NCBI RefSeq assembly: GCF_001050155.1
Contig: NZ_LFVY01000016.1
Span: forward strand, 1 to 64,000
Direction of reading: 5' to 3'
Origin: Nitratireductor soli
Lineage (GTDB): Bacteria > Pseudomonadota > Alphaproteobacteria > Rhizobiales > Rhizobiaceae
DNA length: 64,000 bases
In this document: positions 7,508-23,171 of the stretch, in pieces
Position numbering within the stretch: the stretch's first letter is position 1
Layout of the letters: every line of letters begins with the position of its first letter
Notes under the pieces: generated by a model
What the model was told of the DNA's origin: nothing
Databases searched by the model: none
What the model saw: only the letters and a program-made list of their open reading frames with translations
Program-made: the position numbers and the translations under genes

Positions 7508-7545
7508 GCTCGTTCCTCCCTTGATTTTCGACGTCCCAGGCCCGG

Positions 7546-8469
7546 CTACTGAACCGGACTGGTGATCTCCCCAATCTCCGCGATCGCTGCCGTCATGACA
7601 TCCCCACGCTTGAGGAAAATGCCGCGCCCCATGCCGACGCCGGTGGGCGTGCCGGTCGCGATCACGTCGCCGGGCTTGAGCGTCAGGATCGTCGAGAGAT
7701 AGGCGATCTGTTCGTTGACCTTCCAGATCATCTCCTCGGCGGTGCCCTGCTGCATCACGGTGCCGTTGACGGTTAGGCTGAGGCTGACCTTTTGCGGATC
7801 GGGTATCTGCGAGGCCGGCACGAGCCATGGGCCGAAGGGCGCGAAGCTGTCGTGACACTTGCCCTGGAACCAATCGAACTTGAACGGATAGTCGCTGCGC
7901 ACATTCATGTCGCGCGCCGTCACGTCGTTGACCACCGTGTAGGCGGCGACATGGCTCAGCGCATCGGCCACGGATACGTGGCGCGCCCGCTTGCCGATGA
8001 CGGCCGCAAGCTCCACCTCCCAGTCAAGCTGGCTGGTCGCGTCGGGCATCACGACAGGCTGGCCCGGACCGACAACGCAGTCCTCCAGCTTCAGGAACAT
8101 ATAGGGCTTGCTGACCGCCTTGGCGGCGAGCACCGTGCCCATCTCGTCCGCGTGGTCGACGAAGTTCGAAGCGGCGCAGAAGATCCGGCCCGGACGGAAC
8201 GGCGCGGAAAGCTGCACCGCGTCTGGAAGCGCGCGCACCTTGCCGGCGGCTGCCGCCGCGCGGATCCCGCCGGCCACCGCATCCCAATCGCTCCGGTCGG
8301 CACAGAGGTTCTCAAGGAACTGAGCCGCCTCGCCGTTCGACCAGTTTCCGCGCGGGACGTGGATTCCCGCCTCGCGCAGCGCTTTAGCATCGTAGATCGC
8401 TCCGTCGCAAATCACTGCCGGGACTTCCCGGCTATCCGATGCGTATGTGCCGAAGGCGATGGCTGGCAT
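7546..8469 (-). CDS. Fumarylacetoacetate hydrolase (FAH)-family enzyme
   Basis: A 307-residue FAH-fold protein. The divalent-metal ligands lie in QLDWEVELAAVIGKRARHV and in the preceding MFLKLEDCVVGPG; the conserved TPTGVGMG lies near the C-terminus. Members cleave acylpyruvates, decarboxylate oxalocrotonate or dehydrate keto-acids at the end of aromatic and sugar-acid pathways. The start at 8469 is chosen from a GAGGAGAACTCTC ribosome site; upstream in-frame codons lack one. A putative operator repeat lies 36 nt upstream (8505-8514). It is second in the operon after the GST gene, the usual pairing of a maleylpyruvate isomerase-like GST with a fumarylpyruvate hydrolase. Confidence 0.9.
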   Translation of the reverse strand: MPAIAFGTYASDSREVPAVICDGAIYDAKALREAGIHVPRGNWSNGEAAQFLENLCADRSDWDAVAGGIRAAAAAGKVRALPDAVQLSAPFRPGRIFCAASNFVDHADEMGTVLAAKAVSKPYMFLKLEDCVVGPGQPVVMPDATSQLDWEVELAAVIGKRARHVSVADALSHVAAYTVVNDVTARDMNVRSDYPFKFDWFQGKCHDSFAPFGPWLVPASQIPDPQKVSLSLTVNGTVMQQGTAEEMIWKVNEQIAYLSTILTLKPGDVIATGTPTGVGMGRGIFLKRGDVMTAAIAEIGEITSPVQ

Positions 8470-8504
8470 GAGAGTTCTCCTCACTCATTCTCGAATTCAT
8501 CTAT

Positions 8505-8534
8505 GCGTACAATAATCAAATTTTGTGTGCAATA
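8505..8534. promoter_or_regulatory. Candidate GntR operator copies TGCGTACAATA / TGTGTGCAATA
   Basis: TGCGTACAATA occurs at 8504-8514 in the GST-FAH gap, and a 9/11 match (TGTGTGCAATA) follows at 8524-8534. The identical 11-mer recurs at 9353-9363 upstream of the GST gene. The core GTAC-AA resembles FadR/VanR-type half sites. Regulation by the adjacent divergent GntR protein is inference. Confidence 0.4.
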
Positions 8535-8559
8535 TCTTTTTTGTGTATGCCGAAATTTG

Positions 8560-9336
8560 TTACCCGAGCGCCTCGGCCACGAGTCCGCGCACGAATGCCG
8601 GATTGACCGGCGACGGCTTTCCAGCCTCCCCCGGCGCACGCGCAAGCATGAACGACGGCCTTTGCGCCACACGGCACGACCAGGCGCGGGCGTGAGGATA
8701 TCGCTCCCAAAGACCGCTGAGTGCGAGCATCTCCAATCGCTCGACCATCGCCGCCATGGCGATGTCGGCGAGCGAGAACGCGCCTCCGACGAGCCAATCC
8801 CTTCCGGCGACAGCCTGGTCGATGCGGGACATCGTGAGGTCGAGACTTCGGATGGCGGAGATGACTGCCATGCCATCGAACGGCGCCAATACCGCCGCCC
8901 TGTATGCTGCCGCCCGCTCCGGCCTCGGATGGCGGGAAAGCCTGTTTTCCAGTGCTTCCGCCGACAATCCGGCCAGGAGCGGCTTGATGTAGAGATTGAA
9001 GGTCGGCGGCCTGATCGCCGGGTGAACCACGGTATCCTCATGATGGCACCACCACCGCATCCGTGCGCGAGCGAACGCATCACCCGGCTGCAGCCGCGAT
9101 GAGTTGAAGGCCTCGTCCAGATAGGCGTTAATGGTCGAAGATTCGGTAAGAACACCCTCCTCCACCTCGAGCGCCGGCACGAGCCCGTCCGGATTGACGG
9201 CGAGATACCTCGGCTCCAGATGATCGAAATCGGTGAGGCTGAGGGCGCGGCCGTCCCACGGGATTCCGATCTCCGCAAGGCACATGCGCACCTTGAACGA
9301 TTGAAGCGAATCCCAAGCATGATGGAGAACGACCAT
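8560..9336 (-). CDS. Glutathione S-transferase family protein
   Basis: A 258-residue two-domain GST. The thioredoxin-like N-domain opens with VLHHAWDSLQSFKVRMCLAE, holding the Ser/Cys-x-x-Ser helix start, followed by the glutathione-binding NPDGLVPALE and LTESSTINAYLDE (about residues 55-80). An all-alpha C-domain follows. The start at 9336 has GGGAGGTGCTG before the ATG. As first gene of the catabolic operon and neighbour of the FAH hydrolase it may act as a glutathione-dependent isomerase (maleylpyruvate isomerase type) or in reductive removal of a substituent. A general detoxification role remains possible. Confidence 0.85.
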   Translation of the reverse strand: MVVLHHAWDSLQSFKVRMCLAEIGIPWDGRALSLTDFDHLEPRYLAVNPDGLVPALEVEEGVLTESSTINAYLDEAFNSSRLQPGDAFARARMRWWCHHEDTVVHPAIRPPTFNLYIKPLLAGLSAEALENRLSRHPRPERAAAYRAAVLAPFDGMAVISAIRSLDLTMSRIDQAVAGRDWLVGGAFSLADIAMAAMVERLEMLALSGLWERYPHARAWSCRVAQRPSFMLARAPGEAGKPSPVNPAFVRGLVAEALG

Positions 9337-9352
9337 CAGCACCTCCCATTTT

Positions 9353-9419
9353 TGCGTACAATACCTGTATAATGTCGACATTTATGACTGGAAGCGCAAG
9401 GGACATGTTGCTAATGTCC
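9353..9419. promoter_or_regulatory. Divergent control region of the GST operon and gntR
   Basis: Three elements are visible in the 142-bp gap between the divergent genes. TGCGTACAATA (9353-9363) repeats the element at 8504-8514. A TATAAT box lies at 9368-9373 on the plus strand. A perfect dyad GGACAT-N7-ATGTCC spans 9401-9419. A GntR dimer could bind either the repeat or the dyad to control both directions. Confidence 0.45.
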
Positions 9420-9478
9420 GGCAGATTGTGATTACGCGACCGCGTTCAATCGGTCGCTATCGTAACGAGCGGGAACCC

Positions 9479-10162
9479 ATGGCGAGCAGCACACTGAGCC
9501 GGAAGATAGCCAACACCCTGTCGGAGGAAATCCTGAAGGGTGATTTGATGCCGGGAGACCGGTTGGACGAGCAGTCGCTCGCCGACCGCTTCGAGGTCTC
9601 GCGCAGCCCCATCCGCGATGCCCTGCGCGAACTCGCCTCGACCCGGCTCATCGAGCATCAGCCGCGGCGCGGTTTCGCCGTGGCGATGATCGATACGACG
9701 ACGCTGCGGAATTTATACGAGGCCTTGGGCGAACTCGAGGGGCTTTGCGCCAGATACTGTGCTCTGCGCGCGGATGCAGTGCAGCGCGAACACATTCGCA
9801 TGCTCCATGCCCAGGGCCTGGAAGCGATCAGGCTCCATGACATGACCGCCTATGCAGAGGCCAATCACGCCCTGCATCGGGCAATCTACGACGCGTGCCA
9901 CAACGATGCGTTGCGGGACATTACGCTCGATGTCCGCAACCGGCTCTCCATGTTCCATGCCCGGTTCCTGTTCTCCGAAGGCCGGGTCGCACAATCGCGG
10001 GACGAGCACCAGGAAGTCGTCGACTGCATCCTGAGGAACGATGGCGATGGCGCCAGCGAAGCGATGAAGAAGCATGTGGCGAAAACGGCCCTGAACATCA
10101 TATCGCACATAATGCCCGACAACAGAAAACCGATGGCGCCGGCCGCTTCCGACGATGGCTGA
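9479..10162 (+). CDS. GntR-family transcriptional regulator (FCD subfamily)
   Basis: A 227-residue repressor. The N-terminal winged helix (about residues 5-70) shows EEILKGDLMPGDRLDEQSLA, RFEVSRSPIRDALRELAS and LIEHQPRRGFAV, the standard GntR signature. The C-terminal part is the all-helical FCD ligand domain with HALHRAIYDACHN and a late DEHQEVVDCIL, carrying the Asp/His metal or carboxylate ligands. I choose ATG 9479 (MASSTLSRK); the in-frame codon at 9428 is less likely. It is divergent from the GST-led operon and is the obvious local regulator, with an organic-acid intermediate as inducer. Confidence 0.9.
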   Translation: MASSTLSRKIANTLSEEILKGDLMPGDRLDEQSLADRFEVSRSPIRDALRELASTRLIEHQPRRGFAVAMIDTTTLRNLYEALGELEGLCARYCALRADAVQREHIRMLHAQGLEAIRLHDMTAYAEANHALHRAIYDACHNDALRDITLDVRNRLSMFHARFLFSEGRVAQSRDEHQEVVDCILRNDGDGASEAMKKHVAKTALNIISHIMPDNRKPMAPAASDDG

Positions 10163-10479: not shown

Positions 10480-10615
10480 GGACACGTCGTCCCGGTTCCC
10501 AAAGCAATCTAGGGTCAGGACCTACTAATTCGGAATTCATGGAGCAAGGGCAGGTACGGCCGGCAAATCCCACCGTCGGACAACACTGCACGATGTCCTG
10601 ACTGATCGAACGATG

Positions 10616-11545
10616 TCAGGCTTCGGCAATTCTTGCGCGAAAACACTCGGTGCCGCGCTCGATGTGATCGAGCAGATCTGCCGCGGCCCAGTGGCGTTCG
10701 AGGGGGTCGTAGTCCACCACCCGCGAATGGGCGCCTGCAAACGTTCCAAGCCGCATATGCCAGAGCTTGGCGAGCTTGGGGTAGCCCATGCCTTCCGCCA
10801 TGCCAGCAAGGGCCAGGAAGACCGCCAGATCCCGCACCAGTTCGGTGTCCTCGTCCCTATGGTCGTAAAGCCAGGCATAAAGGTCGGGATGGAAGTTGCC
10901 GAACACCCCGCCGAAGCCGCGCGAGCCCGCGCGCATGGCTGCAAGCGCGATCGCCGCGTTGGCGTTGACGATCGCGAAGGGCGTTCCCGCCGTCATCGCG
11001 GCGCGGCGAGCAACCGTCTGCAGGTCGCAACTGACATCCTTCAGCACGGCGAAGCGGCCAGTATCGATGCACAGCTTGAGTTCGTCGTCGCTGAGAAGGC
11101 GGCGATAGGGCGCGGGGCATTCGTAGAGCCCGAGCGGAAGGTCGGCTGGCAATGCCCGCATGATGCTTTCGAGCGCATGCCGGAAAGCCGCGAAGCCGGC
11201 ATTTTGCGGGTCCAGCCGATTGGTGACCAGGACCAGCGCATCGACGCCGGTTTCGCCCATGGCCTTCAGTTCGGTCAGCTGATCCTCGAGCGCTTCGCAG
11301 ATGTGCCCCGAAGCGATGACGGGCAGCCGCCCCCGTGCGAATTCAAGCGTGCGGCGCGCCAGGAAAACACGCTCGTCCAGGCTGAGCCTCTGCATCTCGC
11401 TCGACTGGCACACGGCGAACAATGTCTGCGCGCCGCCTTCGACATACCAGTCGATCAGCCGCGCGAGCCCATCCTCGTCGATGCGATCAGCCGGTGTGAA
11501 CGGCGTGAGCATCACCGGCACGAGGCCGTCAATCCTGATCTTCAT
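10616..11545 (-). CDS. DapA-family pyruvate-dependent aldolase/dehydratase
   Basis: A 309-residue TIM-barrel enzyme with the Schiff-base Lys in FAVLKDVSCD and the catalytic Tyr in LGLYECPAPYRR. The N-terminal GLVPVMLTPF and LFAVCQSSEMQRLSLDER replace the usual GTTGE motif by CQSSE, a deviation seen in catabolic rather than lysine-biosynthetic members. The start at 11545 (MKIRIDG) is preferred over an upstream ATG at 11569. It is divergent from the FG-GAP gene, and the shared 88-bp gap holds a perfect IclR-type palindrome. It is therefore the left arm of the IclR-controlled locus. The substrate is unknown. Confidence 0.85.
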   Translation of the reverse strand: MKIRIDGLVPVMLTPFTPADRIDEDGLARLIDWYVEGGAQTLFAVCQSSEMQRLSLDERVFLARRTLEFARGRLPVIASGHICEALEDQLTELKAMGETGVDALVLVTNRLDPQNAGFAAFRHALESIMRALPADLPLGLYECPAPYRRLLSDDELKLCIDTGRFAVLKDVSCDLQTVARRAAMTAGTPFAIVNANAAIALAAMRAGSRGFGGVFGNFHPDLYAWLYDHRDEDTELVRDLAVFLALAGMAEGMGYPKLAKLWHMRLGTFAGAHSRVVDYDPLERHWAAADLLDHIERGTECFRARIAEA

Positions 11546-11594
11546 TTCGCGTCCATCTGCAGGTTTCATTTGCCACGCTATATGATACGAAGTG

Positions 11595-11613
11595 AAATTG
11601 GAATAGGATTCCA
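11595..11613. promoter_or_regulatory. IclR operator copy A (AAATTGGAATAGGATTCCA)
   Basis: The 15-bp core TGGAAT-AGG-ATTCCA (11599-11613) is a perfect palindrome. The full 19-mer is repeated exactly at 20572-20590, upstream of the IclR gene. It lies between the divergent aldolase and FG-GAP genes, 6 nt before the FG-GAP ribosome site. The exact long match 9 kb away makes chance unlikely. Confidence 0.8.
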
Positions 11614-11632
11614 AAAATGGAGGAGCAGCATC

Positions 11633-13603
11633 TTGAGCGTGACCCGGTGGGAGGATGACGCGTCGGTCTGGACCGGCCCGTCCTATGTGGATCGGGCAAT
11701 CGCCTATCATCCCGATGTCCGGTCAGCCCCGGTGGCCGGCCGTATCATCACCTGCGTCGACGTGGTCGACTGGGACGGCGACGGCGGACGCGATCTTCTT
11801 CTGTCGAGCTGGGATACCTGCTACGAGGGCCGCGTCTTTCTCTATCCCCAGATCGGGACGAAACCGGACGGCACGCCGATCCTCGGCCGCGAACGGATCA
11901 TCGAGGGTGTGCGCGGCTACGTCACCGCCGTGCGCGACGGTGACCGCTTCCATCTCCTCTCGGTCTCGCGGATGCGCCGGCAGATCTACCTGTTCCCCAA
12001 TATCGGCACCGCGAGCGAACCGTGCTTCGGCGAACCGGTCGTGCTCGACCTCGAAGCCGACTGGGTCAAAGGCAACGAATATTTCCACATGGCCCGCTTC
12101 GACGACATCGACGGCGACGGTGTTCCCGAGCTCGTCGTGGGCACCGATTCATGGGATGATTACTGGCCGAACGGCCTGGAATGGAACGATGCCGGCTATC
12201 GCGCCTACGATGCGGCGGGCCGCTGGCTGGGCGGGCCGCTGCGCGGTTTCCTGTATGCCTTCAAGAACACGGGAACGCTGAGCGCGCCGGTGCTCGGCCG
12301 CGGAAGAACGATCCTCGGGGGTGAGACCCCGCTCGAGGTTTACGGCCAGTGCGCGCCCGCCTTCGGAGACTTTACCGGTGACGGGAAGAATGCCGTGGTG
12401 TGCGGCGAGTTCTGGAACATCCTTCACTTCGCCCGTCAGACGGCACCCTTCGCCTTCGAACAGCCGACGCTGGTTGCCGATGCTTCGGGCGATCCCGTGC
12501 TGCTGGACCAGTGCATCCACCTGCCCTGCGCCGTCGACTGGGACGGCGACGGACGGCTCGACATCCTGGTCGGCGCCGAAGACGGCTATGTGACATTCCT
12601 CCGCAACACCGGAACCGGCCCTGACGGACGACCGGCCTTTGAGAAGATCGGGCGCGTCGAGGGCGCCGAGCCGGCCATCCATGCCGGCGTCCTGCCCTCG
12701 CCCACCGCCCATGATTTTTCCGGCAACGGCCTGCCGGACCTCGTCGTCGGCAACAGCACCGGCGAGCTCCTTTTCTACGAAAATCTCGGCCCGCGCGAGG
12801 CTCCGGGGCTCGCCCGCGAGGTCATGATCGAGGCGGACGGGAAACCGGTGCGCATCGCCGCCGGCCTGACCGGCTCGATCCAGGGGCCGTCGGAAAAGAT
12901 GTTCGGCTATTCCTGCCCCACCATTGCCGATTGGGACGGCGACGGTCTGCCCGACCTTCTTGTCAGCGACGTCAACGGCCACCACAGCTTCTACCGCAAC
13001 GCCGGCGGAACGGTGCCGCCACGTTTCGAAGCGCCGCGCCCGCTGACATGGCAGGGCAAGCCGCTGAAGACGGTCTGGCGGGTGCGGCCGGCCGTGGTCG
13101 ACTGGCTGGGCGACGGTCAGCTTCACTATCTCGCGCTCGACGAGGACGGCGTGTTGTCGGATTTTCGCCGTGCCTGCGACACCGAACTTGCCGACAAGCG
13201 GCACCTGCGGTGGGAGGACGGGTCGGAAATGCGCTTCACGCAGGATGTCGGCGGCGGACGCGGACGGGTAAAACTGTGCGCCGTCGACTGGACCGGCGAC
13301 GGCCGGATCGACCTCGTTATCGGCACGCATGCGCGCGCGTCAGTGCCTCCCGGGCCGATCGGCCAACCGCGCAACACGACCGGACAGGCCGGCATCTTCC
13401 TGCTTGAGAATATCGGCTCCAATGCCGCGCCCGTCTTCGCCTTCCCGAAGGCGTTCAGGTTTCGAGGCGAAACGATCCGCATGGCCATGCACGTCGCCTC
13501 GCCCGAAGCCGTCGATTGGAGTGGAAGCGGCAAGCTCGGCCTGGTGGTCGGCGTAGAAGACGGCAGCCTGGTATGGCTGAAGCGAGAGGATCTCTCATGG
13601 TAG
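11633..13603 (+). CDS. Cytosolic FG-GAP/VCBS-repeat beta-propeller protein
   Basis: A 656-residue protein built from about nine FG-GAP/VCBS blades. Each has a calcium-loop-like DWDGDG or D-x-x-G-D/N-G followed by a hydrophobic strand: VVDWDGDGGRDLLL, DIDGDGVPELVVG, DFTGDGKNAVVC, VDWDGDGRLDILVG, DFSGNGLPDLVVG, ADWDGDGLPDLLV, VDWLGDGQLHY, VDWTGDGRIDLVIG and VDWSGSGKLGLVVG. The start is TTG at 11633, placed by GGAGGAG at 11619-11625; longer in-frame sequence overlaps the divergent aldolase and is not coding. No signal peptide or membrane segment is present, which is odd for a family usually secreted or surface-bound. It overlaps the AroE-like gene downstream by 7 nt. Its biochemical role is unknown; a lyase, a scaffold or a sugar-binding enzyme are possibilities. 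Confidence 0.85.
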   Translation: MSVTRWEDDASVWTGPSYVDRAIAYHPDVRSAPVAGRIITCVDVVDWDGDGGRDLLLSSWDTCYEGRVFLYPQIGTKPDGTPILGRERIIEGVRGYVTAVRDGDRFHLLSVSRMRRQIYLFPNIGTASEPCFGEPVVLDLEADWVKGNEYFHMARFDDIDGDGVPELVVGTDSWDDYWPNGLEWNDAGYRAYDAAGRWLGGPLRGFLYAFKNTGTLSAPVLGRGRTILGGETPLEVYGQCAPAFGDFTGDGKNAVVCGEFWNILHFARQTAPFAFEQPTLVADASGDPVLLDQCIHLPCAVDWDGDGRLDILVGAEDGYVTFLRNTGTGPDGRPAFEKIGRVEGAEPAIHAGVLPSPTAHDFSGNGLPDLVVGNSTGELLFYENLGPREAPGLAREVMIEADGKPVRIAAGLTGSIQGPSEKMFGYSCPTIADWDGDGLPDLLVSDVNGHHSFYRNAGGTVPPRFEAPRPLTWQGKPLKTVWRVRPAVVDWLGDGQLHYLALDEDGVLSDFRRACDTELADKRHLRWEDGSEMRFTQDVGGGRGRVKLCAVDWTGDGRIDLVIGTHARASVPPGPIGQPRNTTGQAGIFLLENIGSNAAPVFAFPKAFRFRGETIRMAMHVASPEAVDWSGSGKLGLVVGVEDGSLVWLKREDLSW

Positions 13604-14415
13604 CCTCCCCCATAGCAGTGGACGGTTCGACACGGATCATGGGCGTCATCGGCGATCCCATTGTGCAAGTGATGACGCCGCAGACGATCAATCCGATCTT
13701 CGCGGCGCGCGGCGCCAACATTGTGTGCGTACCGTTGCACATAGGCGCCCGTGAGCTCGACACCGCCTGGGCTGGTCTCAAGGCAATCAGGAACCTGATT
13801 GGTTTCGGCATTACCCTGCCGCACAAACAGGCAGCGTTGAGGCTTTGCGATAGCCTTGACCCGCTTGCCAAGCAGGTCGGAGCGGTCAATGTCGTGCGGC
13901 GCGAGGCCGACGGTTCGTTCAGAGGCTACCAGTTCGACGGCAAGGGCTTCGTTCGCGGGTTGAAAGGACAAGGCCACGCGCTCTCCGGCCGCCACTGCCT
14001 CATGGTCGGCGCCGGCGGTGCCGCGATCGCGATCGCCTTCGCCCTCGCCGAGGAAGGCGCAGCATCGCTGAGCATTGCCAACAGGACCCCCGCAAAAGCC
14101 GAGGCGCTTGCCGCAGCCGTGAATCGCGCCGTGGGCAGGTCGTTCGCGCGCTCAGGCACAGCGCAGCCGGAGCCCGGACAGATCATCATCAATGCAACGT
14201 CGCTCGGTCTGTCCGCGAGCGATCCTCTGCCCCTTGCGGCAAACCTCGTCGACGAGACGATGCTGGTCGCGGAGGTGATCGCCAAACCGGAAATCACACC
14301 GCTGCTCGAAGCGGCAGGCGCACGCGGCGCGAGCATCCATTCGGGCATTCACATGATCCGCGGACAGGTTGACCTCATTGCCGCCCATATGGCCGAGCCG
14401 CAGACGGAAACCTGA
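13597..14415 (+). CDS. Shikimate dehydrogenase-like oxidoreductase, paralogue 1
   Basis: A 272-residue AroE-fold protein. The catalytic Lys is in TLPHKQ and the partner Asp in FDGKGF; the nucleotide-binding loop is VGAGGAAIAIAFALAEEG, followed by NRTPAKAE, whose Arg suggests NADP(H). The shikimate carboxylate motif S-x-S-P-x-x-H-N is replaced by Q-V-M-T-P-Q-T-I-N, so Ser-x-Ser becomes Val-x-Thr and His becomes Ile. This argues against housekeeping shikimate synthesis and for another hydroxy-acid or polyol substrate. The start at 13597 overlaps the FG-GAP stop, so translation is coupled. It converges on its paralogue at 14419-15243 with only 3 bp between stop codons. Confidence 0.85.
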   Translation: MVASPIAVDGSTRIMGVIGDPIVQVMTPQTINPIFAARGANIVCVPLHIGARELDTAWAGLKAIRNLIGFGITLPHKQAALRLCDSLDPLAKQVGAVNVVRREADGSFRGYQFDGKGFVRGLKGQGHALSGRHCLMVGAGGAAIAIAFALAEEGAASLSIANRTPAKAEALAAAVNRAVGRSFARSGTAQPEPGQIIINATSLGLSASDPLPLAANLVDETMLVAEVIAKPEITPLLEAAGARGASIHSGIHMIRGQVDLIAAHMAEPQTET

Positions 14416-14418
14416 AGT

Positions 14419-15243
14419 TCACAGCGGCGTTCCCGCCTCCCGCCCGGCCGCGAATCCAGCAATCAGCGCGATCTGCGCCTCAAGCATGTCGCGGCCGTCG
14501 CTCGTCGCGGCACCACGCTGGCGGGCCAGCTTCAACAGTTCCGTGTCGCGCGCCAGCGCCGCGATGTCGGCCACCAGCATGCCCGCCCCGACCCCGCCGA
14601 GGTCGACCGGAAAAGCCTCCGCCGATTTCAATCCTATCGGCGTTGCATTGATCAGTATGTCGATTCCGGCGAGATCGCCGCGGCCCCGCTGCGCGACCGG
14701 ACTGCCCGTGACGCGATTGACCATGCCGACCGTGAAATCCAGTGCTTCCTCGTCAACATCGATAACCGCCAGCCGGGAGATTCCTTCGCCGGCCAGCGTA
14801 TGGGCGATGGCGCGCCCCGCTCCTCCGGCTCCCACGAGCAGCACCGACGCCCCATCGAGACGGTCGCGGTTGCCTGCCAGTCCGCGCACGAAACCCAGTC
14901 CGTCGAACAGCGCTCCATACATGGAACCGTCATCGCGGCGCTGAATCGAATTCACCGCGCCGACAGCGGCCGCAGCCGGCGTCAGTTCGTCGCAAAGTCG
15001 CGCGGCAGAGATCTTGTGCGGGACCGTCACACCGATGCCCGCCACGTTGTCCATTGCCGTGAAGACCCGCCATGCGGGTTCGAAATTCTCGCGGGTCACG
15101 TGGAAGGGGACCGCATAGAGATCGATGCCGCTTGCCGCGAACATCGGGTTGATGAGGGTGGGCGTCTGCACCTGTGCCACCGGGTCGCCGAACACCGCGT
15201 AGATGCGCGAGGCGCCGCCGAGATTCGGAATGGTGTCGCTCAT
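14419..15243 (-). CDS. Shikimate dehydrogenase-like oxidoreductase, paralogue 2
   Basis: A 274-residue AroE-fold protein, clearly related to the converging paralogue. The catalytic Lys is in TVPHKI, the Asp in LFDGLGF, and the dinucleotide loop is VGAGGAGRAIAHTLAGEG. After that strand it has VIDVDEEAL in place of the NRT-type loop, an acidic end that favours NAD(H), so the pair may differ in cofactor. The substrate motif is Q-V-Q-T-P-T-L-I-N, with the same Val-x-Thr change. It is the last gene of the minus-strand arm that starts with iclR, 7 nt after the TIM-barrel gene. Two such enzymes could oxidise and then reduce epimeric hydroxyls of one compound; that is inference. Confidence 0.85.
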   Translation of the reverse strand: MSDTIPNLGGASRIYAVFGDPVAQVQTPTLINPMFAASGIDLYAVPFHVTRENFEPAWRVFTAMDNVAGIGVTVPHKISAARLCDELTPAAAAVGAVNSIQRRDDGSMYGALFDGLGFVRGLAGNRDRLDGASVLLVGAGGAGRAIAHTLAGEGISRLAVIDVDEEALDFTVGMVNRVTGSPVAQRGRGDLAGIDILINATPIGLKSAEAFPVDLGGVGAGMLVADIAALARDTELLKLARQRGAATSDGRDMLEAQIALIAGFAAGREAGTPL

Positions 15244-15250
15244 GATGTGG

Positions 15251-16093
15251 TCATCCTCCCGAAAAGATGCTTCGGCATCGCGCGAGAGCTGTGTCGATGA
15301 CGAGGTCGGGGTCTTCCGCCCACCATCGGTCTGAGAATATCTCTATCTCGATCGGCCCGGTGTAACCGGCGGCCCGTACCTGGCGCCACATGCCGGCAAG
15401 GTCGATGATGCCGTCCCCCATCATGCCGCGATCGCGCAGGACATGCCTGGTCGGCACCAGCCAGTCGCTGACATGGAAACCCAATATCCTGCCGGCAGCG
15501 CCGGCGCGGTCGAGTTCGGCCTCCAGCCGCTCGTCCCACCAGATGTGATAGGCGTCGGCCACGATGCCGACCCCCTCGCCCAGCCGCTCGCATAGGGCGT
15601 TGGCGTGACTGAGGCTGAGGATCACCGCGCGGTCGCCGGCGACCATGGGATGCAGCGGCTCCAGCGCCAGCGTGATGCCGACGGGGCGGGCATGGTCGAG
15701 AAGATGGCCGATGGCATCCTCGGTTTGCGCCCGCCCGCCCGCGAGGTCGCGGCTGCCGTCCACGAGCCCGCCGGAGAAAACCAGAACATGGTCTGCCGCC
15801 AGTTCGGCGGCCATGTCCACGGCGCGCCTTGCACGATCCAGGCACGCAGCCCTGCCCGCTGCTCCGGCGCCCAGAAGCGGCCCTGCCCGGTTGAAGCCGA
15901 ATGTGGAGATGCCGGTGCGGGTCAGAATCCTGCGGGCTTCTTCGATTCCGACCTTGTCGATCTCGTCGCCCCACAGGGATGCGCGCGACAAGCCCCGCGC
16001 CGCGCATCCCTCGAGAAACGGCTCGAGGCCCCATTTCTCACGGATGGTCGCCTGATTGAAAACATATTCGGGAGGCTGCAGCGCTTCGACCAT
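15251..16093 (-). CDS. Sugar phosphate isomerase/epimerase-like TIM-barrel enzyme (AP-endonuclease-2 fold)
   Basis: A 280-residue xylose-isomerase-like TIM barrel. Metal-site elements are visible: Glu in ITLALEPLHPM, Asp and His in VADAYHIWWDE, His in LGFHVSDWLV and Glu in PIEIEIFSDRWW. The fold family includes sugar epimerases, inosose dehydratases and 3-dehydroshikimate dehydratases (AsbF/QuiC type). The neighbouring AroE-like genes make a dehydratase or epimerase acting on a cyclic or polyhydroxy keto-acid attractive, but the sequence alone does not decide. It sits between the ABC ATPase (gap 9 nt) and AroE-like paralogue 2. Confidence 0.85.
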   Translation of the reverse strand: MVEALQPPEYVFNQATIREKWGLEPFLEGCAARGLSRASLWGDEIDKVGIEEARRILTRTGISTFGFNRAGPLLGAGAAGRAACLDRARRAVDMAAELAADHVLVFSGGLVDGSRDLAGGRAQTEDAIGHLLDHARPVGITLALEPLHPMVAGDRAVILSLSHANALCERLGEGVGIVADAYHIWWDERLEAELDRAGAAGRILGFHVSDWLVPTRHVLRDRGMMGDGIIDLAGMWRQVRAAGYTGPIEIEIFSDRWWAEDPDLVIDTALARCRSIFSGG

Positions 16094-16102
16094 GATGTTG
16101 CG

Positions 16103-16954
16103 CTAGAATTTGTAGACGCCGAGCTTCTCGAAAATCCGATAGATCCTTTCGGCATATTTCGAAAACTCGGGATACTCGCCCAGATGGGCAGGGCGCGGGC
16201 GCGGCAGGTCGATGACGATCTCCTCGACGATCGTGCCGGGGCTCTTCGACATCACCAGCACACGATCCGAAAGGCCGACGGCTTCCTCGATCGAATGGGT
16301 GATGAACAGCACTGTCTTGCGCGTCTCGAGCCAGAGCATCTCCAGATCGTGCCGGATCTGTGTGCGCGTGATCGCATCGAGCGCGCCGAAAGGCTCGTCC
16401 ATCAACAGCATCGAGGGATCGTGAACCAAAGCGCGCGCAATGGATACGCGCTGACGCATGCCCCCGGAAAGCTGCCAGGGATACCGGTTCTCCGCCCCCG
16501 CGAGACCGAGCCGCTCGAACAGGGCGTCGGCGCGCTCCCTGAGCGCCGCCTTGTCCAGCCCCCGCATCTCCTGCTGCAGCATGACGTTCTTGATGGCGGT
16601 GCGGAAATCCAGAAGCAGATGGTCCTGGAACACGATGCCGATCTCCGAAATCGGGGCGGTCAGCAGCTTTCCGTCGATTTCCACCGTGCCGGCACTCGAC
16701 GGTTCCAGTCCGGTCACCAGCAGCATGGTGGTGCTCTTGCCACAGCCGGACGGACCGATGATGGAGACGAATTCTCCCGGCTTGATGTCCAGATCGATGG
16801 GGCCAAGCGCGTGGAAGGCATTTTCCCCGCTGCCAAAGACCTTGGTCAGCCCCCGCGCGTTGATCGAGGCTCCTGCGGCGATCGCGCCGCCAACCGGATG
16901 CACCAGGCCGGAAGGGGTTCGCGTCTTCATGTCTGCCATCGTCATGTCCATCAT
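16103..16954 (-). CDS. ABC transporter ATP-binding protein, NitT/TauT family
   Basis: A 283-residue ATPase with Walker A GPSGCGKST, signature LSGGMRQR, Walker B MLLMDEPFGALD and H-loop FITHSIEEA. An N-terminal extension of about 30 residues (MMDMTMADMKTRTPSG) precedes the first strand, and the start is uncertain because several ATGs follow each other and none has a strong ribosome site. It serves the permeases at 16971-17792 and 18922-19680 and the binding protein at 17869-18870. No second ATPase is present, so it must drive either a heterodimeric channel or two alternative channels. Confidence 0.9.
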   Translation of the reverse strand: MMDMTMADMKTRTPSGLVHPVGGAIAAGASINARGLTKVFGSGENAFHALGPIDLDIKPGEFVSIIGPSGCGKSTTMLLVTGLEPSSAGTVEIDGKLLTAPISEIGIVFQDHLLLDFRTAIKNVMLQQEMRGLDKAALRERADALFERLGLAGAENRYPWQLSGGMRQRVSIARALVHDPSMLLMDEPFGALDAITRTQIRHDLEMLWLETRKTVLFITHSIEEAVGLSDRVLVMSKSPGTIVEEIVIDLPRPRPAHLGEYPEFSKYAERIYRIFEKLGVYKF

Positions 16955-16970
16955 TGTCGCATGTCTGGGT

Positions 16971-17792
16971 TCAGTGTCTGGACCAGGGCATCAGCCATTG
17001 GCTGATGATGCTCATCGCACCGTTGAACATCAGCGCGACAATCGCCGCAGCCACCAGTCCGGAGAACATCAGCGTCATGTCCATGAATGCGGAGGCGCGC
17101 AGGATCATGAAGCCCAGTCCTTTGTTGGAGGCGATGAACTCGGCGATTATGACGCCCTCGACCGCCTTCACCACGCCGATCTTCATGCCCGAGAAAATAT
17201 GCGGCAGCGCCGCCGGCAGCCTGACCTTCCAGAAGGTCTGCCATGAGCTCGCTCCCATGGAGCGCGAAATGTAGAAAAGCCTGCGGTCGATCAGCCGGAA
17301 ACCCGACATGGAATCGACCAGCACGGGAAAGAAGCTCATCAGGAAAACGATCAGCGCAGCGACCAGCGGGCCTATGCCGAACCATATGATCAGGATCGGC
17401 CCGATCACCGTCTTGGGCATGATGTTGAGAAACACGATGACGGGATACAATCCCCGCTCCAACGCGCCTATCGAAACGATCGCCAGCGCCAGCGGAACCG
17501 CCACCAGCACTCCAAGAGTGAAGCCCTGCACGATCGTGAGCGAGGTCCAAAACGCATGCCCGGCGATCAACGCCCTGTCGGTGTAAAGCCGGGCCAGAAA
17601 ATCCGAAGGTTTGGGCGCAAGCCATACGGGCACTTCGAAGAAATGAAGCGCGGCCTCCCACAATCCGAGCAAGAGCAGCACCGCCACCGTCCCGATCAGG
17701 ACGGAGGAAAGATACGAACCGCCGAATGCCGCCATGAGACGCGCACGTGTACCGGATGGTGCCGGTGCCATGGCAGAAGCTGTTTGCGACAT
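16971..17792 (-). CDS. ABC transporter permease, NitT/TauT family (permease 1)
   Basis: A 273-residue permease with six predicted membrane segments. The EAA loop reads YISRSMGASSWQTFWKVRLPAALP. The N-terminal 25 residues are polar, followed by a first helix LIGTVAVLLLLGLWEAALHF. A second, diverged permease of the same family lies two genes upstream (18922-19680). The two share the fold and EAA pattern but differ through most of their length, suggesting an old duplication and a possible heterodimeric channel. Confidence 0.9.
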   Translation of the reverse strand: MSQTASAMAPAPSGTRARLMAAFGGSYLSSVLIGTVAVLLLLGLWEAALHFFEVPVWLAPKPSDFLARLYTDRALIAGHAFWTSLTIVQGFTLGVLVAVPLALAIVSIGALERGLYPVIVFLNIMPKTVIGPILIIWFGIGPLVAALIVFLMSFFPVLVDSMSGFRLIDRRLFYISRSMGASSWQTFWKVRLPAALPHIFSGMKIGVVKAVEGVIIAEFIASNKGLGFMILRASAFMDMTLMFSGLVAAAIVALMFNGAMSIISQWLMPWSRH

Positions 17793-17868
17793 GTCTACGA
17801 GACTTTCCGCGTGAGATTGATGTCCGGGCGCCTTTCGCGCCCGGAGCGGATCCTGCGATTGGCCAACC

Positions 17869-18870
17869 TCAGGGGCAGGTCACCGGCGTTTCCGGCAGAT
17901 AGTCGAGCGTGTAATAATCCGTCACCGGCTTGGTGTCGGGAAGGTTCATCGCCGAAGTCATGACGCCGTACATCTTTTCCCAGGTGTCCGCGTCGGTCAC
18001 GCCGATCGCGTCGCCCGAGCCGCCGGGGCAAACCGACGCGAAGCTGAACTTTGCCGACTGAACAAGGTTCTCCTTCGAATGGGCCGTCTCCGGGAAAATC
18101 TCCAGCAATGCGTCGACTGCGGCTTCCGGATCCTTCATCGCTTCCTGCCAGCCCAGTGCCGTGGCCTCGACAAAGCGCTTGTAGACATCCGGATTGGCCT
18201 GGTGCTTGTCTTCACGCGCCACCAGGGCAAGGCTCGCGATGGGAACGCCATTGTTGTAGAAGTACATGTTGCCCGCCTCGATGCCCTGCGCGGCCAGCGG
18301 CACCACGATGTTTTCCGGGGTCTGCGACACCGCATCGACCTGCTTGGACGTCAGAAGGCCGATGAAGGCGCTTTCGGCGGCCGAGACGATCTCCACCTGA
18401 GATTCTTCGATGCCGTTGGCACGCAGGAAAACCGGAATGAGGGGCAGCATGGCCGATCCCGGAGACACCGCCAGCTTCTTGCCGATGAGATCCTTCGGTT
18501 CCTTGATGCCGGAATCGGCCAGATACTGGATGCCGAACTGTCCGGATTTCCAGATGGTCGCGATGATCCTGATCGGCGCCCCCTGCGCGGCGACATTGAG
18601 CGTCGCGCCGGTATCGGCATAGCCGAGCTCTGTCTGTCCGGTCGCCACCATCTGCGCCGCCACGGCGGACCCGCGGCCCTCCGTCAGGGTGACGTCGAGA
18701 TCATGGTCCTTGTAGATGCCCTTGGCCTGGGCCACCGCGAAACCGAGATGCGCGGAATCGGCCGTCCAGTTCATCTGCATCTGGAGCTTGTCCTGTGCCA
18801 GCGCGGGAACGCCTCCTGCGAACAATGCGACCATTGCCCCCGCCGCCACATGCCTCAATTTGAACTGCAT
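17869..18870 (-). CDS. ABC transporter substrate-binding protein, NitT/TauT (NMT1-like)
   Basis: A 333-residue periplasmic binding protein. The signal peptide is MQFKLRHVAAGAMVALFAGG with cleavage near PALAQDK; the mature protein starts LQMQMNWTADSAHLGFAVA and QAKGIYKDHDLDVTLTEG, the NMT1/THI5 fold opening. GGGAGGAATGC precedes the ATG. It lies between the two permease genes, which supports one transport system with two permease subunits. The ligand is unknown, but the locus enzymes suggest a polyhydroxy or cyclic acid. Confidence 0.9.
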   Translation of the reverse strand: MQFKLRHVAAGAMVALFAGGVPALAQDKLQMQMNWTADSAHLGFAVAQAKGIYKDHDLDVTLTEGRGSAVAAQMVATGQTELGYADTGATLNVAAQGAPIRIIATIWKSGQFGIQYLADSGIKEPKDLIGKKLAVSPGSAMLPLIPVFLRANGIEESQVEIVSAAESAFIGLLTSKQVDAVSQTPENIVVPLAAQGIEAGNMYFYNNGVPIASLALVAREDKHQANPDVYKRFVEATALGWQEAMKDPEAAVDALLEIFPETAHSKENLVQSAKFSFASVCPGGSGDAIGVTDADTWEKMYGVMTSAMNLPDTKPVTDYYTLDYLPETPVTCP

Positions 18871-18921
18871 TCCTTCCTCCCTTTGATTTATCGTGATGCT
18901 TGATCGTCGATCACGAACCGG

Positions 18922-19680
18922 TCAGCGCCGCCGCCAAGGCAGCAATGTCCTTTCCGCCACTTCCATCCCCCAACTGAGCACAACCCCGATCATCGAGCCG
19001 ACCACGAGCACGGCGAAGATCAGCGACGTGTCGGAATCGTCCATCCCCCGGAGGACCAGGTAGCCAAGTCCGTTCTGCGAATTCATCCACTCGACGACGA
19101 TCACCACCGTCACCGCAATGACGACGGTGATCTTGAACCCGGAGAAGATGCTGGGCGCGGCGGAGGGAAGTTCGAAGAAACGGAACGTCTGCCACCAGGA
19201 CGCACCGACCGATCGGCTGAGATAGTACTGCCGGGGGTCGATGGATTTGAAACCGGTCACGCTGTCGACCAGGATCGGAAAGAAGGTGATCAGCGCGGTG
19301 AGCAGGATCTTCGGGAAGTCGGCAAAGCCGAACCAGACCAGCATGAGCGGAGCCAGTGTGATCTTCGGCAGCCCCTGGATGAACACGACGAGTGGATAGA
19401 GCACCTGCTCCGCGAGCCGGAACTTGGCGATCAGGTAACCGAGCACGACGCCGGGAATGGCTCCGGCGACAAACCCGTAGACGATCAGCCGTGTCGTCAC
19501 GAATGCATGATAGCCCAGCCTCTGATAATCCTCGACGATCCGCGACAGGAATTGCGACGGTGCAGGCAGCACGTAGATCGGCACATCCAGCGCCCTGACC
19601 AGAACCTCCCAGATCAGCAGCAGCCCGGCGAACCACAAGACCGGCTCCAGGAAACGCTGCATGATCGGATTCGGTTTCAC
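18922..19680 (-). CDS. ABC transporter permease, NitT/TauT family (permease 2)
   Basis: A 252-residue permease with an EAA loop YLSRSVGASWWQTFRFFELPSAAP. I place the start at GTG 19680 (VKPNPIMQRFLEPVLW): GAGGAG at 19687-19692 gives 6-nt spacing, and upstream in-frame residues belong to the iclR gene read out of frame. The gene begins 10 nt after the iclR stop, so its ribosome site lies inside the end of iclR and the two are coupled. Confidence 0.85.
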   Translation of the reverse strand: MKPNPIMQRFLEPVLWFAGLLLIWEVLVRALDVPIYVLPAPSQFLSRIVEDYQRLGYHAFVTTRLIVYGFVAGAIPGVVLGYLIAKFRLAEQVLYPLVVFIQGLPKITLAPLMLVWFGFADFPKILLTALITFFPILVDSVTGFKSIDPRQYYLSRSVGASWWQTFRFFELPSAAPSIFSGFKITVVIAVTVVIVVEWMNSQNGLGYLVLRGMDDSDTSLIFAVLVVGSMIGVVLSWGMEVAERTLLPWRRR

Positions 19681-19690
19681 AATCCGCTCC

Positions 19691-20527
19691 TCACGCTTCC
19701 ACCGCCGTCTGCGCCCGCACGACCGCCACGGCAGGCTGATAGCCCCGCTGGCGGCTTCGCAGCGACCAGATTTCCGCAACTTCCACAGCGGCCTTCTTCA
19801 GCGCGGCGGCAAGCTCTTCGTAGCGTTCCGGAGTGATCCGCACCAAGGGGCCTGCAACACTCATCGTGCCGGCGACGGGGGCATCCGGCCCCACACCGTT
19901 GAAGAACGGAACGGCAACGGCTCCCGTCCCCGCCTCGGCTTCCTCGACGGAGGTCGCATAGCCTCGCTGCCGCGTTTCCGCGAGTCTGGCGCGAAATTCG
20001 TCAACGTTGGTCGCGCTGTTGGGGCCCAGCGGCCGCCGCGCGTCGAAACCGCGGGCGCAGACGATGCGCAGCGCTTCCGATTCCGCCAGCGTGGAGAGCC
20101 AGGCCTTGCCGTTGGCAGTGGCATGCAGGACAATCTCCTGTCCCATCTCAGGGTCGTAGCGCAGGCCCGTGACAGCCCCCTGCGCCCGGGCAACCCAGAC
20201 CAGATCCTCCCCCTCGACGATCGCCAGACGGCAGTATTCCTGCGTCTCGCGCGCCAATGTGTCGAGCACCGACTGGACCACATCCGGCACCGCGCGGACG
20301 TCGAGATTGCGGAATGCAAGCGTGCTCATGCGCAACGAGAGCGCATAGCGTTGCGTACCGGCATGCTGCAGCACCCATCCCCGGGATACGAGCGTGGTCA
20401 GCGTGCGGTGAACCGCACTTGCGGGCATGCCCAGCCGGTTCGCAAGATCCGTCAACTCGACGGGCTCGCGCTCGCCTGCAAGCGTCTCCAGCATCGTCAG
20501 ACAGCGGTCTATAGCGGCAACGGTCAA
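19691..20527 (-). CDS. IclR-family transcriptional regulator
   Basis: A 278-residue regulator with an N-terminal winged helix (AIDRCLTMLETLAGE, LANRLGMPASAVHRTLTTL, RGWVLQHAGTQRYALSLRM) and a C-terminal IclR ligand domain (WVARAQGAVTGLRYDP, LHATANGKAWLSTL, RGYATSVEEAEAGTGAVAVP, GTMSVAGPLVRI). The start is a TTG at 20527 fixed by GGGAGG with 5-nt spacing; upstream in-frame residues have no such site. It is the first gene of the minus arm permease-SBP-permease-ATPase-TIM barrel-AroE. Its upstream palindrome is repeated exactly at 11595-11613, so the regulator probably controls both arms of the locus and itself. Confidence 0.92.
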   Translation of the reverse strand: MTVAAIDRCLTMLETLAGEREPVELTDLANRLGMPASAVHRTLTTLVSRGWVLQHAGTQRYALSLRMSTLAFRNLDVRAVPDVVQSVLDTLARETQEYCRLAIVEGEDLVWVARAQGAVTGLRYDPEMGQEIVLHATANGKAWLSTLAESEALRIVCARGFDARRPLGPNSATNVDEFRARLAETRQRGYATSVEEAEAGTGAVAVPFFNGVGPDAPVAGTMSVAGPLVRITPERYEELAAALKKAAVEVAEIWSLRSRQRGYQPAVAVVRAQTAVEA

Positions 20528-20567
20528 CCGTTCCTCCCTGGTCAGAACGTGAATATACAACAGCCAA

Positions 20568-20590
20568 TTCCAAATTGGAATAGGATTCCA
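20568..20590. promoter_or_regulatory. IclR operator copy B with overlapping second palindrome
   Basis: TTCCAA-A-TTGGAA (20568-20580) is a perfect palindrome that runs into TGGAAT-AGG-ATTCCA (20576-20590). The last 19 bases equal copy A at 11595-11613. The site is about 40-60 bp upstream of the iclR TTG, where it can serve autoregulation. Confidence 0.8.
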
Positions 20591-21110: not shown

Positions 21111-22015
21111 CAGAAGTCTCCTGAGATACAGGCCGAATCGACATAGAGGAAGGCGCGCTTGTCGGTGTCCGTCTCGGCGAACAGGCAGAAATTCAGCATG
21201 CACCAAAGGTTCTTCATCGCCGGGATGCGAATCGATTCGAAAGCCGTCATGTCGAAACGGCGGTCGTTGCACTGGAAGTCGAGCGCCTTCATCGTCTCGA
21301 GGTCAAAGTCGAAGCGCAGATAGGTCCAGTTCACTTTGGTGCTGATCTCGTTGTAGCACAGCCGCTGCTCGCCGCCCGGCAGGTCTTCCCAGCCTTCGGG
21401 CGCGAGGTGGTAGTGGCTGAGCGTCTTGTCGCCGCTGCCCACCGGCTTGAACGCCGTGGTTTGCCGCTTGAACTGCCATTTCTGCACGTGCTCGCCGTCG
21501 AGCGCATTGAGGAAGCGCAGATGTGGCATGACCCGCTCGCCGCCCTTGTCGTGATCGCCTGCCTGCAGATCGAACAGGAAGCCCACGGAGCGAACATCGG
21601 TCTCGCTGAGCTTCAGTTCGGAGGCCTCCGGTTTGAAGGTGAAGTAGACCTCGAAGCGGATGCGACCGCGATGGCGGAACGTGTGGCGCTTGATCGCAAC
21701 GTTCTGCGCGCCCTTGCGCGGGCGGGTCGCGACCTTGAGCGCATAGGACGAGCCCATGCCGCCGTGCGAACCGGAATCCCAGTGACTGAGGGTGGAAAGC
21801 ATGGTGCCTGTGTGCTGGGCGTAGCCCGGGAGCATCGTGTCGAGATCGTCCTCGTAATTGCCAACGAGCTGCGACCAGCCGCAGTGTCCGTTCGAGAATT
21901 CGTCATGGCTGATGATGCGCGGCAGCGGGTCGAAGCGCGACAGCTTCGGGTCGGCACGCAGCAGGGCAAGCCGCAATGCCTCCGCCATCTCGTTTGTGGG
22001 CTGTGATGTCGTCAT
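21110..22015 (-). CDS. Unrecognised 301-residue soluble protein of the sugar-acid locus
   Basis: I cannot assign a family. The 301 residues are soluble, beta-strand rich and aromatic (HCGWSQLVGNYEDD, HWDSGSHGGMGSSYALKV, GRIRFEVYFTFKPE, VGFLFDLQAGDHD, YHLAPEGWEDLPGG, VNWTYLRFDFDLETM), with many His, Asp and Trp residues as in a carbohydrate-binding or lyase-type beta-sandwich. There is no signal peptide, so it should be cytosolic. The start at 22015 follows the dehydratase stop by 19 nt; longer in-frame sequence overlaps that gene. It forms an operon with the dehydratase and the 111-residue protein. An isomerase, lactonase or sugar-binding role is possible. Confidence 0.75.
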   Translation of the reverse strand: MTTSQPTNEMAEALRLALLRADPKLSRFDPLPRIISHDEFSNGHCGWSQLVGNYEDDLDTMLPGYAQHTGTMLSTLSHWDSGSHGGMGSSYALKVATRPRKGAQNVAIKRHTFRHRGRIRFEVYFTFKPEASELKLSETDVRSVGFLFDLQAGDHDKGGERVMPHLRFLNALDGEHVQKWQFKRQTTAFKPVGSGDKTLSHYHLAPEGWEDLPGGEQRLCYNEISTKVNWTYLRFDFDLETMKALDFQCNDRRFDMTAFESIRIPAMKNLWCMLNFCLFAETDTDKRAFLYVDSACISGDF

Positions 22016-22034
22016 CGCGCTCTGCGCCTTTCCG

Positions 22035-23171
22035 TCATTGCACACGCAGGCGCTTGACCGCGTCCCAGTCGACCTCGACGCCGAGGCCGGGACCGGTCGG
22101 CACCGGCAGCATCCCGTTCTTCTGGCGGTCGGCGCCGGGGGTCGTGCCCGTGATCGCAGTCTTGAATGCGCTCTCGTCGGTCTCGCATTCCATCGCCTTG
22201 ATGTTTGGCATGGCGGCGGCGAGATGAACGCTCGCCGTTTCGCAGATGATGCCCGACATACCGATATGCGGCGCATATTGAACGTCGTGGGCGGCGGCAA
22301 ACTCGGCCATGCGCCTGGTCTCGGTGATGCCGCCCGAGCGGGCCACGTCCGGCTGGATGTACGACAGGGTGCGGTTGGAGACGAGCCGCATCGCCTGGTC
22401 GAGCGTATAGTTGCTCTCGCCCGCGGCAAGCGGTGTCGCGCAGCGCCGGTGCAGTTCCTCGTAGCCGGCCTCGTCCTCGGGGCGCAACGGCTCCTCGAAC
22501 CAGAAGTAGTTGTTGTCGGTCAGCGCGCGGCCGACTTCGACCGCCTCCTCCAGCGAGTATGCCCAGTTGGCGTCAACGCACAGGTCGATGTCGTCGCCGG
22601 CCCGCTTTCTCAGATGCCCGATCCGCCGGCAGGCCTCCTTCACCGGGTTGGCGACCTTCACCTTGATGCGCGGAAAACCCTTTTCCAGGTAGCGATCGAG
22701 CTCGCGCTCCATGAAGGGGTCGTCGCCCCAGTTCACTGAGGCCGCGTAGCAGGGAACCTCCGTGCGGCCCATGCCACCGAGCAGCCGGTGGATCGGCATG
22801 TTGGCAACCTTGCCCAGAATATCCCAGAGCGCGATATCGACGCCGGCGATCGCCTCGAAGAGCATGCCGCCGGAGCGGCCGGAAAGAGCGCGCCGCATGC
22901 TGCGCCACAGCGCACTGATGTCGGTTGGGTTCTGGCCGACGAGGCGCGGCTTCAACAGCGTTTCGATTGCTTCCGCATAGGCCTTGGGCGCGAAGCGGGC
23001 CAGCGTTTCGCCGACGCCGACGATGCCGGCATCCGTGCGGATTTCTACCAGCACGATCGAGACCTCGGAATATGTTCCCCAGGACGTGACCGTAGGCCGC
23101 GGCAGCGTCTGGGTCAGGGGATGGGCGATCAGATCCGTGATGCGGATGTCGGCGCTGGCGGTGTTCGTCAC
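22035..23171 (-). CDS. Mandelate racemase/muconate lactonizing (enolase superfamily) dehydratase
   Basis: A 378-residue enolase-superfamily enzyme. The catalytic K-x-K lies in RIKVKV, the three Mg ligands in CVDANW, WFEEPL and AAGESN, and the opposite base is a D...H dyad with Asp in IQPDVARSGG and His in APHIG. This is the mandelate-racemase subgroup pattern found in acid-sugar dehydratases. It probably dehydrates an aldonate to a 2-keto-3-deoxy acid. It is divergent from the FadR-type regulator gene, with a dyad in the gap, and heads an operon with two unrecognised genes. The specific sugar acid cannot be read. Confidence 0.9.
   Translation of the reverse strand: MTNTASADIRITDLIAHPLTQTLPRPTVTSWGTYSEVSIVLVEIRTDAGIVGVGETLARFAPKAYAEAIETLLKPRLVGQNPTDISALWRSMRRALSGRSGGMLFEAIAGVDIALWDILGKVANMPIHRLLGGMGRTEVPCYAASVNWGDDPFMERELDRYLEKGFPRIKVKVANPVKEACRRIGHLRKRAGDDIDLCVDANWAYSLEEAVEVGRALTDNNYFWFEEPLRPEDEAGYEELHRRCATPLAAGESNYTLDQAMRLVSNRTLSYIQPDVARSGGITETRRMAEFAAAHDVQYAPHIGMSGIICETASVHLAAAMPNIKAMECETDESAFKTAITGTTPGADRQKNGMLPVPTGPGLGVEVDWDAVKRLRVQ

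Follow-up and report, generated by a model that had tools for sequence, protein, structure and literature searches.

What controls the gene cluster that lies between a dihydrodipicolinate synthase (DHDPS)-family aldolase gene and an iclR regulatory gene in Nitratireductor soli, and through which DNA sequence? We analysed the first 64,000 nucleotides (nt) of contig NZ_LFVY01000016.1 (assembly GCF_001050155.1), hereafter the window, in which the 19-mer AAATTGGAATAGGATTCCA occurs twice, at positions 11595-11613 (site 1) and 20572-20590 (site 2), at the promoters of an FG-GAP repeat protein gene and of iclR, respectively. Judging from sequence data, both palindromes are operators of the cluster's own IclR-family protein, with a probability of about 0.88. 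A cluster of unclear purpose can thereby be viewed as a putative regulon whose operator is precisely defined, which gives a route to the regulator, the inducer and the substrate of the FG-GAP/AroE/aldolase pathway.

An earlier note on this DNA had reported the two copies of the 19-mer, one between the aldolase and FG-GAP genes and the other before iclR, and had described TGGAAT-AGG-ATTCCA as a perfect palindrome; all of this was borne out. Both matches are exact, no third match with up to three mismatches was found in the window, and none of 100 dinucleotide shuffles contained two copies (mean 0.01). The loose 15-mer with up to two mismatches was found twice in the window for 1.64 occurrences expected, which is not significant alone. 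As such a loose palindrome is uninformative within 64 kb, the case rests on exactness, position and conservation. Site 1 is located in the 87-bp gap of a divergent promoter, between the aldolase ATG (11545, minus strand) and the FG-GAP TTG (11633, plus strand). The FG-GAP start and the aldolase ATG lie 27 and 61 nt downstream of its centre, respectively, and the site ends 18 nt ahead of the FG-GAP start codon. The site 2 core is centred 56 nt upstream of the iclR start (TTG 20527, minus strand). The second palindrome that the note saw overlapping site 2, TTCCAA-A-TTGGAA, is present, but the overlap is not accidental: site 2 is composed of three half-sites, the third of which continues the alternation in direction. 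At site 1, the corresponding position reads AGTGA, which differs from TTCCA at four of five bases. Lastly, the 'two-arm regulon' of the note slightly understates the organization. Based on gene order, we infer that the two sites serve three transcription units, namely the aldolase, FG-GAP-aroE, and iclR-permease-NMT1 binding protein-permease-ATPase-TIM barrel-aroE, the latter two of which converge at ~14417.

We then scored the core TGGAA-N5-TTCCA at the promoters of related genes, within 120 nt upstream of the start for FG-GAP. Relatives of the FG-GAP protein were collected at 27 loci (L labels) in named genomes, the closest in Nitratireductor (91-94% identity) and the others in Mesorhizobium, Sinorhizobium, Rhizobium, Aquamicrobium, Pelagibacterium and Jiella. 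The full gene set is present in the same order at 10 of the 27 loci (L018-L022, L024, L033, L035, L039, L041), and the remaining 17 are interrupted by a contig end, carry frameshifts, are rearranged or lack the NMT1-type transporter. Upstream of iclR, the core was found with no mismatch in 20 promoters, one in 2 and two in 1, for a total of 23 including that of the window; L023, L027, L037, L038 and L044 have no iclR relative on the examined piece and were left out. These cores have their centre 50-57 nt ahead of the start, or 40 nt in L032. Six further copies of iclR found elsewhere (L086-L089, L091, L096) bring the total to 29 promoters, 25 of which have a core with no more than one mismatch. 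The FG-GAP promoters number 26, excluding the truncated L038 and the 44% fragment of L044: 9 have a perfect core, 13 a core with one mismatch and 4 a core with two. In the L037 promoter, two mismatches are found both at a shifted place and at the conserved place. Adding L081-L083 (L084 duplicates L034, and was counted once) yielded at most one mismatch in 24 of 29 promoters and at most two in all 29. By comparison, among random 120-nt stretches taken from these loci, only 1.6% harbour a core with up to one mismatch, and 5.7% one with up to two. Many of these loci are closely related, and their promoters are not independent events.

For a finer analysis, we used 22 less redundant FG-GAP promoters and 21 iclR promoters, leaving out the Nitratireductor loci L018, L019, L036, L039 and L041 as well as L082; the FG-GAP set also leaves out L083, and the iclR set the site-less L086, L087 and L096. 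Column conservation at the FG-GAP promoters is 0.85 in the core, 0.76 in the preceding 8 nt and 0.47-0.58 in the other flanks, with GAA and TTC invariant. As for the half-sites, 13 of these promoters have TAGAA on the left, 6 have TGGAA and 3 have CAGAA, and 20 have TTCCA on the right. The two types of promoter differ in their third box, which is exact in 17 of 21 iclR promoters. At the corresponding position of the 22 FG-GAP promoters, it is exact in 2, one base off in 2, two bases off in 13 and further off in 5.

The earlier note had also proposed that the sites should be confined to this locus and its orthologues, and that a common dispersed repeat would refute their role. The latter is excluded, since the perfect 15-mer TGGAATNNNATTCCA occurs only at the two cluster sites in the entire source genome (5,116,425 bases, 58 contigs), and the former largely holds, although exact matches to derived patterns were found in a few genomes without the locus. 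With one mismatch, TGGAATNNNATTCCA was detected at six further places of the genome, versus one for a backwards control. All six lie in stop-to-stop frames of 288-991 codons with a third-position GC content of 0.74-0.86, and are thus coding-like. The three-box pattern with up to two mismatches occurs at 11 places versus 5 for its backwards control, site 2 alone being exact. A wider regulon in the source genome was therefore rejected, within a genome-wide search that covered the 15-mer with up to one mismatch and the three-box pattern with up to two.

We next extended the search to 151 genomes of the family (G labels), 9 of which have the locus, as defined by the FG-GAP protein, and 142 do not. 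The exact three-box pattern is present in 6 of the 151, namely 5 of the 9 with the locus, each time at iclR, versus 1 of the 142 without (G147). Thus, five of six places are at orthologous loci, and the backwards control matched once, in G036. The sequence TGGAATAGSATTCCA was found in 9 of the 151 genomes, 7 of the 9 with the locus versus 2 of the 142 without. Ten of its twelve places are at orthologous loci, the two matches in locus-free genomes lie in coding-like frames, and the backwards control had no match in the 151 genomes. Comparing locus-bearing with other genomes, Fisher's test gave p=1.2e-6 for the three-box pattern and p=4e-9 for TGGAATAGSATTCCA, two values that are not independent because both patterns were partly derived from the same loci.

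How might the two sites work? In the mechanism that we propose, the IclR protein would bind both. At site 2, it would cover the -35 region of its own promoter, resulting in autoregulation together with control of the downstream ABC transporter, TIM-barrel and AroE genes. At site 1, it would be flanked by the FG-GAP -10 region on one side and the ribosome-binding site on the other, facing the divergent aldolase, and this position makes repression the simplest consequence of binding. Repression would be released when a metabolite of the pathway binds to the C-terminal domain. The sequence data establish the paired, conserved promoter sites and the linkage to an IclR-family gene, while binding, inducer, sign of control, autoregulation and joint control are all deduced here rather than observed. 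Site 1 follows a candidate -10 box, TATGAT, and a -35 element spaced by 17 nt from the candidate -10 box of iclR, TATATT, would fall within site 2. Both would be repressor-type positions, and simple repression at both sites is probable. In most of the 13 FG-GAP promoters with a TAGAA left half, L031 being an exception, no separate TATGAT was seen by eye, and we therefore suggest that TAGAAT may itself serve as the -10 box in those promoters.

PcaU and PobR are activators, and the cognate IclR protein could similarly act as an activator or a dual regulator rather than as a simple repressor. The location of site 2, over or upstream of the candidate -35 element, would suit this role, and both PcaU and PobR have three-box sites (PMC8222616). 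Site 1, in contrast, is 3' of the candidate -10 box and ends shortly before the start codon, a position that usually blocks transcription. We thus consider activation as rather unlikely.

The comparison with known operators of the family supports this assignment to IclR-type sites. The Escherichia coli IclR site given in Table 1 of PMC8222616, TGGAAATNATTTCCA, shares the TGGAA and TTCCA half-sites and the 5-nt gap with the cluster sites. However, its central bases differ, the linked genes here are not glyoxylate bypass genes, and the cluster protein scores 103.5 of 380 bits on the IclR equivalog model, far under the cut-off. Within the family, three-box sites have been reported from 32 orthologous groups, and the majority of family sites are found between -20 and -80 (PMC8222616), a range that includes the site centres at -27 (FG-GAP) and -56 (iclR). 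As in the three-box operators of PcaU, PobR and HmgR, the half-sites of site 2 alternate in direction, with one convergent and one divergent pair. PcaU half-sites are of the GTNCG type, in contrast with TGGAA, and site 1 of the source genome differs from three-box operators by having two good boxes only. PheR of Sphingobium is likewise a catabolic repressor of the IclR family, and its footprint spans the transcription start, but it recognizes GCAACG and belongs to another pathway (PMC13273656). The regulatory site is therefore solid but of an ordinary kind, a novel example within the known IclR-family operators. This operator group may already stand in the supplementary tables of PMC8222616. 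Site 2 adds a clear three-box operator to the question, raised in that work, of how IclR proteins dimerize on DNA.

A number of observations weigh against the assignment of both sites to the cognate IclR protein, in addition to the shared origin of the two patterns compared above. A promoter scan detected no sigma-70 match of 9/12 at either site. The L034 iclR core is poor, with two mismatches, and L042 has no third box. Sinorhizobium terangae has three iclR copies, two of which, detached on other contigs (L088, L091), have the three-box site, while the third (L096) has no site upstream. G019 and G121 harbour 74%-identical IclR relatives away from the cluster with no such site upstream, and their FG-GAP sites are perfect. 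Pararhizobium polonicum (L023) has kept the FG-GAP site, and the best IclR protein of its genome is only 40% identical. The FG-GAP promoter of G046 (L083), which was left out of the 22-promoter figures, has only weak cores, with two mismatches at -22 and three at -39. The latter, CGAAATGGTGTTCTA (upstream of L083:9930), resembles TGAAATGGTGTTCCA, found before the gene of a 44-45% identical IclR paralogue (L083:13514), and the sequence common to both is unlike the usual site. The 58%-identical iclR relative of G046 has a core with one mismatch and a third box. Finally, the G147 match lies outside any long open frame, with no matches to cluster proteins nearby, and could therefore be a real site elsewhere. 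Based on the exceptions in S. terangae, G019, G121 and G046, the regulator may have been exchanged in some lineages, possibly so in G046.

These exceptions bear on the hypothesis that the sites serve another regulator, which could be an IclR paralogue or the GntR-type protein encoded nearby. The persistence of the P. polonicum site, the unlinked, site-less relatives of G019 and G121 and the paralogue-like G046 promoter all speak for it, as does the presence of 20 IclR_C matches in the source genome. However, none of the other 19 has a core with up to one mismatch in its fetched locus (~3.3-3.5 kb each). Relatives of this very IclR have the core, with no more than one mismatch, immediately ahead of their gene in 22 of 23 promoters, as autoregulation predicts. 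In addition, the IclR paralogue adjacent to several Rhizobium loci has sites of its own that differ slightly, usually ending in TTCCG and not TTCCA before its gene, and the GntR-type protein of the window has a single weak match (24%, L040) in L018-L044 at an E value of 1e-10. A different regulator is thus improbable, and we retain the cognate IclR protein.

A role of the palindrome in RNA, as a terminator or a 5' hairpin, would be compatible with a perfect 6-7 bp inverted repeat. This possibility was rejected: a terminator scan was negative at both sites, and all five outer pairs are kept at only 6 of 22 FG-GAP sites, where the left half varies while the right half stays TTCCA, so that pairing is broken without compensation. 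The iclR promoters, in which 17 of 21 keep all five pairs, are neutral in this respect. A chance or dispersed repeat can likewise be dismissed. The loose two-mismatch pattern is indeed expected by chance in 64 kb, but the exact copies are two in the genome, both at promoters of one cluster, the shuffles do not reproduce them, and the site recurs across genera.

In the rearranged loci L026, L029, L030, L034 and L043, iclR directly precedes FG-GAP, with a site at both promoters. In two further loci, whose genes were called by a simple script, sites are also found before genes for solute-binding proteins of other families: an SBP_bac_5 gene in L025 (L025:12929, with a weaker site at 12798), and an SBP_bac_8 gene in L027 (L027:10734; exact cores at 10588 and 10676). 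This suggests that the transporter under the operator may have been exchanged between lineages. Tentatively, these loci might represent an alphaproteobacterial regulog not yet described, in which the operator word stays with iclR and the FG-GAP/AroE pair while the transporter is exchanged (NMT1-type ABC here, SBP_bac_5 or SBP_bac_8 in Mesorhizobium and Sinorhizobium). At FG-GAP promoters without a visible -10 box of their own further upstream, the left half-site would also act as one (TAGAAT). If true, the operator would be a tag for collecting all the genes of a catabolic pathway around the FG-GAP protein.

Near the Rhizobium-type loci, a related site accompanies the paralogous IclR (38-39% identical). 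It reads TTGGAATNNNNTTCCGA ahead of the paralogue's gene and TGGAATAACGTTCC ahead of the ABC ATPase gene that follows, which may reflect a slight divergence in operator specificity. The features of the locus are collected in Table 1.

Table 1. Operators, candidate promoter elements and genes of the locus. Positions are those of the window unless preceded by a locus label.
Feature	Position	Strand	Remarks
Site 1, two-box operator TTGGAAT-AGG-ATTCCAA	11598..11614		Each arm 7 nt long
Site 2, three-box operator TGGAA-N5-TTCCA-N3-TGGAA	20568..20590	-	Minus-strand reading; core 20576-20590, third box 20568-20572
Candidate -10 box TATGAT, FG-GAP promoter	11581..11586	+	By eye; several relatives show it too
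Candidate -10 box TATATT, iclR promoter	20552..20557	-	By eye
DHDPS-family aldolase	10616..11545	-	Divergent from FG-GAP across site 1
FG-GAP repeat protein, 656 residues	11633..13603	+	First gene of plus-strand unit; TTG start; ribosome-binding GGAGGAG shortly after site 1
AroE-like protein (shikimate dehydrogenase family)	13588..14415	+	Second gene of plus-strand unit; start uncertain; below NCBIfam aroE cut-off
Second AroE-like protein	14419..15243	-	Last gene of iclR unit
Xylose-isomerase-like TIM-barrel protein	15251..16093	-	
ABC ATPase	16103..16954	-	
Second ABC permease	16971..17792	-	
NMT1/THI5-like solute-binding protein	17869..18870	-	
ABC permease of iclR unit	18922..19779	-	Start uncertain; may overlap iclR
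iclR, IclR-family regulator, 278 residues	19691..20527	-	TTG start behind AGGGAGGA ribosome-binding sequence
Paralogue-associated sites	L026:15223, 16157; L029:18453, 19386; L034:14117, 15051; L043:19824, 20758		

For iclR, TTG 20527 is the most plausible start, since the relatives begin at this point. The iclR product belongs to the IclR family, with 102.4 bits on Pfam IclR_C (cut-off 24) and 56.1 bits on HTH_IclR (cut-off 22). It is under the cut-off of all NCBIfam models listed (BhcR, PcaR/PcaU/PobR, KdgR, IclR, AllR), the best subfamily score being that of BhcR, 131.7 of 350 bits. The FG-GAP protein is 67-91% identical to 14 aligned relatives, has no sequence relative in the PDB at an E value of 0.001 and, by eye, carries no signal peptide. 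Its AlphaFold model (predicted local distance difference test, pLDDT, 71.4; predicted template modelling score, pTM, 0.60) matched beta-propellers of many kinds with low TM-scores. The matches of the TIM-barrel protein are unnamed or loosely named entries, and a literature search for entry 7VPF found nothing. Altogether, the cluster genes look as if they served to take up and degrade a single small molecule, which may be a cyclic polyol or acid.

Upstream of iclR and on the same strand, the window codes for a DUF6772 protein (21113-22027; 457 bits) beside an enzyme of the mandelate racemase/muconate lactonising family (22038-23171). This pair is outside the conserved locus, as in L018-L044 the first has no match and the second a single 34% match (L031). 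In Sinorhizobium sp. 8-89, the match to iclR is divided between two frames (L032:15907-16675), through decay or a sequencing error, and its operator core has one mismatch. The contig of L038, labelled as a Spirochaetales metagenome-assembled genome, harbours an FG-GAP fragment 93% identical to that of the window, and is perhaps a mis-binned Nitratireductor contig. On the other side of the aldolase, at 6512-10162, translations inspected by eye suggest a second transport-type binding protein and fumarylacetoacetase-like and GST-like proteins beside the GntR-type regulator.

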